DNA from: Prochlorococcus marinus XMU1402
GTDB lineage: Bacteria; Cyanobacteriota; Cyanobacteriia; PCC-6307; Cyanobiaceae
NCBI RefSeq assembly: GCF_017696205.1
Contig: NZ_JAAORD010000001.1
Location: forward strand, 186,001-250,000
Direction of reading: 5' to 3'
Length of the DNA: 64,000 bases
Made by a program: the position numbers and the translations under genes. Numbering within the stretch: position 1 is the stretch's first letter; every line of letters begins with the position of its first letter. The notes under the pieces were generated by a model. It did not search any database. It had not been told where the DNA came from and saw only the letters and a list, made by a program, of their open reading frames with translations. Positions 52,191-54,942 of this stretch are shown in pieces.

Positions 52191-52823
52191 TTACCAATCT
52201 AGAGATTGCGATACAGTCGGAAAACTTTGTTTGAAAATAGATTTACAATTTTGAGCAATAGACTTGTGTTCCTCTTGGGTACCATGAGCTGATCTTAAAT
52301 TAATATAATGAATCCACGATCGGCATGATCCTGACATATATATTCTCGTTGGAGTTGCTAATGGTAAAACAAATCTCGCGCACTCTTTAGCTACTCCCTC
52401 AGCAAGTAAATCTTCATATAATTCTGAAGCAGCTTTAAAATGCATAGCGATTTTAGTATTAAATCTTTTTTTTAACTCATCAGGGAGGTCAGAAATAGAA
52501 TTCTGCCTATTTTTAAAATCTTGTCTTCTCAAATCTGGTAAAGGAATGTTACCCAATTGAGAACTATCTGCATATCTCTGTGAAAATTCTTGGAATGTAA
52601 ATGATCTATGCCTTAAAATTTGAGCTGCTATTCCTCTATTGGTTTCTATTTGTAAAGTCATAAATGACTGCTCAAATACACTCCAATGTTCATTTTTAAT
52701 ACAATAACTCAATAATTTTGAATAATTTTCATTTTGCTGATTGTTTGGATTACTAACTCTTGCAATGTAAGCCATTGTTTTTTCTGCATCAGGAGTTAGC
52801 GAAATTAGTTCAACTTTGCTCAT
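52191..52823 (-). CDS. thyX: Flavin-dependent thymidylate synthase
   Basis: 210 residues. The ThyX signature RHRSFTFQEFSQR is at about residues 76-88. The enzyme methylates dUMP to dTMP using methylene-tetrahydrofolate with FADH2 and NADPH. It is the last gene of a cobO-like-dcd-thyX operon with gaps of 4 and 1 bases, so the dCTP deaminase and thymidylate synthase are made together. Confidence 0.95.
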   Translation of the reverse strand: MSKVELISLTPDAEKTMAYIARVSNPNNQQNENYSKLLSYCIKNEHWSVFEQSFMTLQIETNRGIAAQILRHRSFTFQEFSQRYADSSQLGNIPLPDLRRQDFKNRQNSISDLPDELKKRFNTKIAMHFKAASELYEDLLAEGVAKECARFVLPLATPTRIYMSGSCRSWIHYINLRSAHGTQEEHKSIAQNCKSIFKQSFPTVSQSLDW

Positions 52824-52824
52824 T

Positions 52825-53418
52825 TTAGATTTTTGCTAAAGTTACCTTCTCTGGTTGATTTTGATATTTACCTCTTCTATCTTCATATGTTGTAGAGCAT
52901 GGATCACCTTCAAAAAAGAGTAGTTGGCAGATACCCTCATTGGCATAAATCCTGCAATCTGCGCCTGAACTATTACTAAACTCTAAAGTGAGGTGGCCTT
53001 CCCAACCTGCTTCTGCGGGGGTTGTATTAACGATAATCCCTAGTCGCGCATAAGTACTTTTGCCTATACAGATAACAGTTATATTTTCTGGTACTTTCAT
53101 CTTTTCTAAAGCTACACCTAAACCATAGGAGTGAGCAGGAAGAATGAAGAATTCTCCATCATTATCATTGTGGAGAACGGTTTTTTCTAAATTATCAGGG
53201 TTAAACTTTTTGGGATTCATTACTGTCCCGGGAATATGCCTAAAAATTAGGAATTCTTTTGATGAAAGTCTTAAATCATAGCCATAGGATGAACACCCGT
53301 AACTTAAAACGGGCTTTTGTTGATTATCAGGCTCAAGATGCCGCACTAAATTTGATTGAAAGGGGTTTATCATCCCTTCAGAAGCTTTTTGATTTATCCA
53401 GAGATCATTTTTAAGCAT
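52825..53418 (-). CDS. dcd: dCTP deaminase
   Basis: 197 residues. IGKSTYARLGI and TTPAEAGWEGHLTLEFSN match Dcd, with the catalytic Glu in the latter segment. It converts dCTP to dUTP, feeding dUMP to ThyX. Gene order with thyX makes pathway sense. It is preceded by the cobO-like gene by 4 bases. Confidence 0.93.
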   Translation of the reverse strand: MLKNDLWINQKASEGMINPFQSNLVRHLEPDNQQKPVLSYGCSSYGYDLRLSSKEFLIFRHIPGTVMNPKKFNPDNLEKTVLHNDNDGEFFILPAHSYGLGVALEKMKVPENITVICIGKSTYARLGIIVNTTPAEAGWEGHLTLEFSNSSGADCRIYANEGICQLLFFEGDPCSTTYEDRRGKYQNQPEKVTLAKI

Positions 53419-53422
53419 AGTT

Positions 53423-54004
53423 TTATGAGCGAAGTTCAGTAATTTGGTTAGCCATAAGTAATAAATCTTTAGGAATACCTGTACCTGTAAGGATTACATC
53501 TCCTGATATAAATCGGTTTTCAAGTGTTGAAATCAAATCATCCTTATCGATAATATTCATCTCGATTGCAAGAAAAATTTCATCAAGTATTATTTGATCT
53601 TGTTCACCAGAGATTAATTCTTTTTTGCAGAAATGCCATAATTCATAAATTGATTTATGTATATTTTCTTTCAATTTTTTATTATTTTCAATTTCTTCAG
53701 AATTATATTGATCAAAGGATTCTGATGATCTTACCCATGTTAGATTTCCACAAAGCTTGACTACATTATCAATCCCTTGTTTTTCACCTCCTTTCATGAA
53801 TTGCACTAAAAGTACTTTTCTTCCTAGAGCAGCATTTCTTAAAGAGTCTCTAATGATAGAAGAATAGCTACCTCGATAAGAGGATTGATAGATCTGGATT
53901 TGACCATTTTGTGTTAATCTTTTTAAATTTTTTTTGTTAGGAGTATTTTTTTTTAAAACTTCAAGATAAGTTTTGGAAAAATTATTAGGCGAACTACTTA
54001 CCAT
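53423..54004 (-). CDS. cobO: CobO/BtuR-like corrinoid adenosyltransferase homologue with degenerate P-loop
   Basis: 193 residues. VLLVQFMKGGEKQGI and QIILDEIFLAIEMNII (Walker B region) and the C-terminal ILTGTGIPKDLLLMANQITELR match the BtuR/CobA/CobO fold. But where the family has the GNGKGKTT P-loop, this protein reads SSYRGSYSS, with no GxxxxGK[ST] anywhere, so the ATP site appears lost. It leads an operon with dcd and thyX. Active adenosyltransferase function is therefore doubtful. The 203-base divergent region to ntcA holds putative NrdR boxes. Confidence 0.75.
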   Translation of the reverse strand: MVSSSPNNFSKTYLEVLKKNTPNKKNLKRLTQNGQIQIYQSSYRGSYSSIIRDSLRNAALGRKVLLVQFMKGGEKQGIDNVVKLCGNLTWVRSSESFDQYNSEEIENNKKLKENIHKSIYELWHFCKKELISGEQDQIILDEIFLAIEMNIIDKDDLISTLENRFISGDVILTGTGIPKDLLLMANQITELRS

Positions 54005-54019
54005 TATTTTTGGATTTCT

Positions 54020-54035
54020 TGTCTATATAAAGTAT
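54020..54035 (-). promoter_or_regulatory. Weak second NrdR-box-like site
   Basis: Read on the minus strand, ATACTTTATATAGACA matches the NrdR consensus ACACWATATATWGTGT at 11 of 16 positions. It overlaps a candidate -10 (TATACT) of the cobO-like gene. The centre-to-centre distance to the stronger box is 31 bases, three helical turns, as in described tandem NrdR boxes. Confidence 0.4.
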
Positions 54036-54050
54036 AATTTGAATCTTATT

Positions 54051-54066
54051 ACACTGCATATAGTGT
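54051..54066 (-). promoter_or_regulatory. Candidate NrdR box at the thyX operon promoter
   Basis: ACACTGCATATAGTGT matches ACACWATATATWGTGT at 14 of 16 positions (only positions 6 and 7 differ) and is part of a longer palindrome ATTACACT-N6-AGTGTAAT (54048-54069). It covers the -35 region of the cobO-like gene. NrdR represses ribonucleotide reductase and related genes in many bacteria when dATP is high. Confidence 0.6.
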
Positions 54067-54144
54067 AATTTTACTTAAAAAAGCGTTGGCAAACTTGAGA
54101 CTAATCCAGAAAGTCTTATTTAGAAATTAATAAGAATTAAAAAA

Positions 54145-54160
54145 TGTTACTGTTGATACA
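54145..54160 (+). promoter_or_regulatory. NtcA-binding site in the ntcA promoter
   Basis: TGTTACTGTTGATACA fits the NtcA-type TGTN10ACA arrangement, deviating from GTA-N8-TAC only at the first arm's third base. TAAATT (54182-54187, TAN3T type) lies 22 bases further downstream, the spacing of NtcA-activated class II promoters. Autoregulation of ntcA is known in other cyanobacteria. Confidence 0.6.
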
Positions 54161-54207: not shown

Positions 54208-54942
54208 ATGATACCTTCTTCTCGAGGATTCAGCAGTTTTAACTCACAACTGTCAGGCCAAAGTAAAATAAATACTATTGGAGAACGTTTTCCAATCAAT
54301 AGAACTTTAATGGAAGTGATTAAAGGTCTAGACGGCGCAAGTACTGAAATGGTTGAGAGATCGAAAACGATATTTTTCCCAGGGGATCCTGCGGAGAGGG
54401 TTTATTTAATAAGAAGAGGAGCAGTAAGGTTATCTAGAGTTTACGAGTCAGGTGAAGAGATTACTGTTGCTCTCTTAAGAGAGAATAGTCTTTTTGGTGT
54501 TTTATCTCTGTTAACAGGTCATAGATCTGATCGTTTTTATCATTCTATTGCTTTTACAAGAGTTGAAATGATAACAGCACCTGCAAATTCTGTTTTAAGA
54601 GCAATAGAGGAAGACGCATCAGTAGGACTTTTATTGTTGCAGGGTCTTTCAAGTAGGATCCTGCAAACAGAAACAATGATAGAAACTCTGACTCATAGAG
54701 ATATGTCTTCGCGTTTAGTTAGCTTTTTAATGGTTCTTTGTAGAGACTTTGGAGTTGCTAGTGAAAAAGGTATAACAATAGATTTAAGGCTTTCTCATCA
54801 AGCTATCGCTGAGGCTATTGGGTCAACAAGAGTAACGATTACACGATTATTAGGAGATTTAAAGGATTCGGGCCTACTGACTATCGAGAGAAAAAAAATT
54901 ACAGTATTTGATCCAATAGCTCTTGCAAAAAGATTTAATTGA
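54208..54942 (+). CDS. ntcA: Global nitrogen regulator NtcA (CRP/FNR family)
   Basis: 244 residues. The N-terminal cyclic-nucleotide-type sensor fold ([22 protein letters not shown] near 55-76), the long dimer helix, and the C-terminal helix-turn-helix with [21 protein letters not shown] match NtcA. It binds 2-oxoglutarate with PipX help and activates nitrogen-assimilation genes. It may be co-transcribed with the DUF3084 gene 39 bases downstream. Divergent from the dNTP operon. Confidence 0.96.

Follow-up and report, generated by a model that had tools for sequence, protein, structure and literature searches.

NrdR regulons are said to have been predicted widely by Rodionov and Gelfand in 2005, and that work or RegPrecise may already list cyanobacterial NrdR targets. 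According to the accessible passages of two papers, NrdR, described as a repressor specific to ribonucleotide reductase (RNR), sits on two boxes as a dATP/ATP-loaded tetramer (PMC9110341), needs both of them, and binds well when the spacer measures 14-17 or 24-27 bp (PMC12051234). As far as the same passages go, the box pairs of nrdRJ and nrdAB in S. coelicolor (PMC9110341) and of nrdHIEF in E. coli (PMC12051234) share with the Prochlorococcus locus described here the consensus of the 16-bp palindrome, a distance of three or four helix turns, overlap with the promoter and a genome-encoded NrdR. Unlike those RNR pairs, the one reported here marks a dcd-thyX operon, with dnaE joining it in relatives, and its box 1 has a near-central GC step (TGCATA). 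A non-RNR gene has also been proposed as an NrdR target in P. aeruginosa, namely topA; in the portion of that paper available, however, topA has a single box and a mechanism which the authors call "questionable", whereas here there are two boxes at an allowed spacing (PMC12051234).

Excerpts of further papers place NrdR in more than 25 groups, with a cyanobacterial collection of 14 genomes (PMC3840689), depict nrdR in a gene map (PMC4139726), and describe NrdR as widely conserved in thermophilic cyanobacteria and absent from Synechococcus C9 (PMC10775510). In Proteobacteria NrdR is stated, in the excerpt at hand, never to be autoregulated (PMC5343134). A passage on the freshwater cyanophage S-SRP02 reports an NrdR-like gene (PMC8790148), and an NrdR encoded by a phage might work at the boxes of its host. 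In Prochlorococcus MED4, according to part of PMC3430701, NrdJ showed the strongest daily protein oscillation of the 312 genes measured, with a peak in S phase. The literature covered lay mostly outside the subscription journals; within its accessible parts, PMC12176259 and PMC5082946 included, we found no description of NrdR control of dcd-thyX or dnaE, and in the text of PMC9531940 we found no NrdR passage. NrdR and NrdR boxes are already known; the interest of the present locus lies in the reach to dcd-thyX and dnaE and in a spacing difference of one helix turn.

The stretch of DNA analysed (the window) comprises 64,000 nucleotides, contig positions 186001-250000 of a 1.70 Mb genome. On its minus strand a cobO/btuR-like gene without a Walker A motif (53423-54004; PF02572, 79.1 bits), dcd for dCTP deaminase (52825-53418; TIGR02274 above cut-off) and thyX for the FAD-dependent thymidylate synthase (52191-52823; TIGR02170 above cut-off) follow each other in close succession and are presumably transcribed as a single operon, of which the cobO-like gene is the first; the divergent neighbour, ntcA (54208-54942, plus strand; TIGR03697 above cut-off), runs in the opposite direction. 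Read in the direction of the operon, the promoter region consists of an A/T tract (54082-54067), box 1 (54066-54051), a 15-bp spacer (54050-54036) and box 2 (54035-54020), followed by the start codon at 54004. The preliminary description of this DNA had reported a match to the NrdR consensus at 14 of 16 positions, lying inside a longer palindrome, and a second copy with 11 of 16 matches at a centre-to-centre distance of 31 bp, and on both our recount agrees. Candidate box 1, ACACTGCATATAGTGT at 54051-54066 (minus-strand reading ACACTATATGCAGTGT; consensus ACACWATATATWGTGT), is part of the palindrome ATTACACT-GCATAT-AGTGTAAT at 54048-54069, and candidate box 2, TGTCTATATAAAGTAT at 54020-54035, reads ATACTTTATATAGACA on the minus strand and ATACTGCATGTAG in many relatives.

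The earlier claim that the two boxes cover the -35 and -10 regions stands for box 2, which overlaps TATACT (54031-54036, minus strand; 2.0 bits in all six columns of an alignment of 81 sequences), the probable -10 element of the leftward promoter. As to the -35 region, the claim is true of position only, because no -35 hexamer is recognisable in the cobO-like promoter and the promoter scan did not call it. The A/T tract immediately upstream of box 1 (TTTTTTAAGTAAAATT, 54067-54082, minus strand; columns of 1.8-2.0 bits) occupies the position of an UP element and presumably acts as one. We consider it highly probable, judging from the arrangement of these elements and their conservation, that the two sites form a paired NrdR operator at the promoter of the cobO-like/dcd/thyX operon; binding of NrdR to the pair, repression and a response to dATP are accordingly phrased here as predictions.

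Judged by the cobO-like protein, the nearest named records are those of Prochlorococcus, in a comparison from which the window's own genome may be absent. Of 191 related stretches the 80 best were followed for conservation, 76 of them titled Prochlorococcus and 4 Synechococcaceae. Box 1 is present in all 80, with 14/16 matches in 35, 13/16 in 41 and 12/16 in 4, and so is box 2, searched for with a pattern composed after inspection of the relatives' sequences; the boxes are 31 bp apart in 79 of these stretches and 32 bp in one (spacers of 15 vs 16 bp). In the alignment of the window with these 80, mean column information reaches 1.90 bits in box 1 and 1.80 in box 2, vs 1.39 in the spacer, 1.26 in the 5' leader and 1.50 towards ntcA; the highest-scoring windows of 16 columns span box 1 and the adjoining A/T tract at 54067-54082, which is conserved like box 1 itself. 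When the 80 cob promoters were scanned over offsets with the published consensus, offset 22 (9.88) exceeded offset 31 (9.25), an excess which in our view reflects A/T content; scoring with the local motif put offset 31 ahead (11.74 vs 9.68). The presence of both boxes throughout these sister strains, which the preliminary description had named as a check, settles that the observation of the box pair is real.

A cobO-like match was obtained in all 61 genomes of the family, in 7 of them by paralogues or partial matches only, and the best 30 loci, 28 of which lie outside the window's genus, were compared. Before the cobO-like gene, every one of the 28 other-genus loci has a box that agrees with the consensus at 12-15 of 16 positions (e.g. 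ACACTATAGATAGTGT), and their second site scores best at 42 bp, not at 31 (mean 8.18/16 vs 5.06 over all offsets, sd 0.89). It reads CCGCTAGATTT, in which only the left half-site is strong; this half falls on the probable -10 and could belong to that element. Both NrdR-tolerated spacer ranges are thereby represented, 14-17 bp by the 15 bp of Prochlorococcus and 24-27 bp by the 26-bp peak of the 28 other-genus loci. Among 24 further family promoters, mostly of higher G+C and scored from the best partner at offsets 30-32 and 41-43 only, a second site of the form CCGCTA, GCGCTA or ACGCTA stands at 41-43 bp in 20, and no such site was found there in L390, L408, L411 and L413. The best single box in further family members did not stand out from shuffles (p > 0.05) in 13/24 cob, 10/17 dnaE and 16/17 nrdJ promoters. 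In these comparisons box 2 keeps its place on the -10, and the distance from it to box 1 is shorter by one helix turn in Prochlorococcus.

Beyond the family, a class-wide search for dcd gave matches in 75 of 96 genomes, and the regions upstream of the best 30 loci were scanned with a single fixed pattern, ACACYRTNNAYRGTGT. A site with at most two mismatches occurred in 8/8 family loci among these 30; in the other 22, which are non-family loci, none had a site with at most one mismatch and two (L334, L338) had a site with two. On this limited test, NrdR-type control of the dcd locus looks like a feature of the family.

The window's genome does encode NrdR (TIGR00244, 189.9 bits against a cut-off of 124.65), as the initial interpretation presupposed. 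The protein has an ATP-cone and, when aligned with the solved homologue 9fvr, shares its two CxxC pairs and its RRRR stretch; residue 15 is E in the window's genome and D in 9fvr. Throughout the family nrdR was found in 52/61 genomes and in 32/34 of those of good quality. The RNR found in the genome is the adenosylcobalamin-dependent NrdJ, whose gene was missed by a PF02867 search and detected by TIGR02505.

As for other predicted targets, scans with the published consensus and a free offset gave a peak at 31 both in 28 nrdJ promoters from other genera (7.18 vs 4.51, sd 0.94) and in 30 dnaE promoters (8.9 vs 4.73, sd 1.04). Pairs at 31 bp with at least 11 and at least 9 of 16 matches are present in 15/28 of these nrdJ and 17/30 of these dnaE promoters, the medians over offsets being 0 and 1, respectively; dnaE pairs also occur at offsets 29 (14/30) and 33 (12/30), perhaps as register shifts. 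In further promoters, mostly of higher G+C, the best allowed offset was 31-32 in 11/17 for nrdJ and 31 in 5/17 for dnaE. Like the cob pair, the tandem nrdJ boxes of the family (L140-L167) are separated by about 31 bp and precede their gene in many loci; they differ from the cob boxes in sequence, reading e.g. ACACTGCAGATGGTGT and ACGCTATTAGTGGCGT, and the distance of about 31 bp which they share with the cob operon of Prochlorococcus contrasts with the 42 bp of that operon in the other genera inspected. Thus the expectation of a box before nrdJ held in many family members, and in the window's own genome it fared less well: the nrdJ sites there match at 10/16 and 11/16, and the pair, equalled by 22/300 shuffles, is weak. 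These sites are nearly invariant over 31 genomes of the window's genus, which proves little, because the entire promoter is equally conserved (1.83 bits overall). No dnaE pair above shuffles was found in the two window-genus genomes scanned (197 and 195 of 300 shuffles reach the score). Under the shuffle controls the case for the cob pair becomes stronger, and those for nrdJ and dnaE in the window's strain become weaker. As to a possible autoregulation of nrdR, the start codon of that gene is overlain by the NrdR-box-like palindrome TCACTACATGCAGTGT (12/16; half coding) in two genomes of the window's genus, at 302207-302222 in the window's genome; in 21/26 of the other loci inspected the best-matching site stands 41-48 bp upstream (e.g. 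TCAATGTATACAGTTG), two further loci having no start.

Across the many small marine cyanobacteria that keep the paired sites, NrdR control very probably extends past RNR to the dUTP/dTTP branch and, in many relatives, also to dnaE, the gene of the main DNA polymerase. We regard as improbable that a different dimeric repressor recognising a similar palindrome binds the predicted boxes: a palindrome as long as this would accommodate a good many regulators, and the strength of the cob pair beside the weak nrdJ pair of the window's genome would fit such a protein, but the match to the published NrdR box rises to 15/16 in relatives, the spacings of 31 and 42 bp fit the two that NrdR tolerates, and the genes marked together with the operon are nrdJ and dnaE.

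The predicted NrdR operator pair is assigned here to the leftward operon; as the palindrome is flanked by two divergent genes and the start of ntcA is about 140 bp away, it could in principle serve the other side, i.e., ntcA or, in many relatives, rph. Among the 28 other-genus loci, the distance from the estimated ntcA start to the box is 835-858 bp in 22 and 162-363 bp in 6. In the five large-gap loci inspected (L171, L174, L186, L190, L197) the gap is occupied by an rph-like gene divergent to the cobO-like gene, confirmed in L171 as RNase PH, and the two small-gap loci inspected have no rph-like gene in between. The box follows no single divergent gene, because the neighbour is ntcA in some loci and rph-like in others, and it remains with the cobO-like operon under both arrangements. 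Box 2, moreover, lies across the -10-like element of the leftward promoter, and upstream of ntcA stands a separate NtcA-like site, TGTTACTGTTGATACA at 54145-54160, which is nearly invariant in the alignment, resembles the NtcA consensus GTA-N8-TAC, and suggests autoregulation of ntcA. We therefore see very little probability in an operator of the divergent gene, and ntcA is not thought to be a target of the box pair.

Single-site matches are weak evidence, their counts being near chance. With up to three mismatches the single motif occurs at 2 sites in the window vs 1.46 expected and at 28 sites in the whole genome vs 25 for a reversed control pattern, so that genome-wide counts at three mismatches fail to tell true boxes from the background; only 2 genome sites have at most two mismatches. 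A degenerate pattern with one mismatch gave no clear separation from background in 12 genomes among the matches listed. Twenty stretches were inspected, 19 with sites hand-picked among the matches listed and one with the nrdJ start, and in three of them (L273, L281, L283) the site precedes a clearly related gene, dnaE. Exact scans of viral contigs returned 29 and 18 stretches, about the number that a rough estimate gives for a collection of that size. Two side observations may be added: in L274:1208-1243 two near-perfect NrdR-like palindromes stand 20 bp apart between converging gene ends and may be a terminator, and the 16-mer ACACTATAAATAGCGT or its complement occurs at several places in two genomes (L272:1221, L275:1169, L276:1093, L278:1221), with no dNTP gene seen nearby. 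The pair behaves differently from the single sites: with offsets of 30-32 or 41-43, the best pair sum in the window's cobO-like promoter, 25/32, was equalled by 0/300 mononucleotide shuffles of the 160-bp promoter. Near-control counts at up to three mismatches would suit AT-rich palindromes due to chance, or elements of promoters in general, a reading that deserves hardly any credence and is already contradicted by conservation (80/80 among the best 80 of 191, and 28/28 other-genus loci), as well as by the pair score and by column information in the boxes above that of the spacer and the 5' leader.

A part of the preliminary description that finds no support is the corrinoid link of the first gene. 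The cobO-like protein belongs to the BtuR/CobO superfamily (PF02572), and its scores for the four NCBIfam families that it matched stay under their cut-offs; at the place of Walker A it has SSYRGSYS, aligned with GNGKGKTT of the solved enzyme. The motif is absent in all 125 rows inspected, i.e., 80/80 close relatives (best 80 of 191), 30/30 from the family and 15/15 class-wide. Elsewhere the window's genome encodes a CobO whose GNGKGKTT is intact (L388), as well as a relative in which GEGKGKS occurs twice (L389). A role of the gene as supplier of adenosylcobalamin for NrdJ was considered and rejected, since the protein lacks Walker A; judged by its motifs, it is a dcd-linked Walker-A-less relative and not a likely source of the NrdJ cofactor. 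A gene of this kind adjoins dcd even outside the family, a cobO-like match standing beside dcd in 15 of the 22 class-wide non-family loci and none being found in the other 7.

On the whole, the interpretation offered by the preliminary description is supported. In the mechanism that we propose, NrdR, bound to box 2 over the -10 and to box 1 some three turns of the helix farther upstream, would block RNA polymerase; when dATP falls, as at the onset of replication, NrdR would be released from the boxes, and expression of the operon would set in along with that of nrdJ and, for many relatives, that of dnaE. A wider reading, which we put forward as a tentative and rather doubtful one, would make the NrdR of marine picocyanobacteria a dATP-gated S-phase switch joining nrdJ, dcd, thyX, the Walker-A-less CobO relative and dnaE in one regulon, rebuilt in Prochlorococcus with the cob spacing one helix turn shorter, dnaE no longer a member and the control of nrdJ weaker; within it, the CobO relative may serve dCTP/dUTP metabolism. 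With its four-turn and three-turn spacings, nature itself puts the helix-phase rule of NrdR to the test, and the set of operators makes the part of dATP sensing in the S-phase timing of NrdJ testable. If true, control by NrdR through box pairs before dcd-thyX and dnaE would broaden into a regulon of DNA synthesis, and this among very abundant marine phototrophs.
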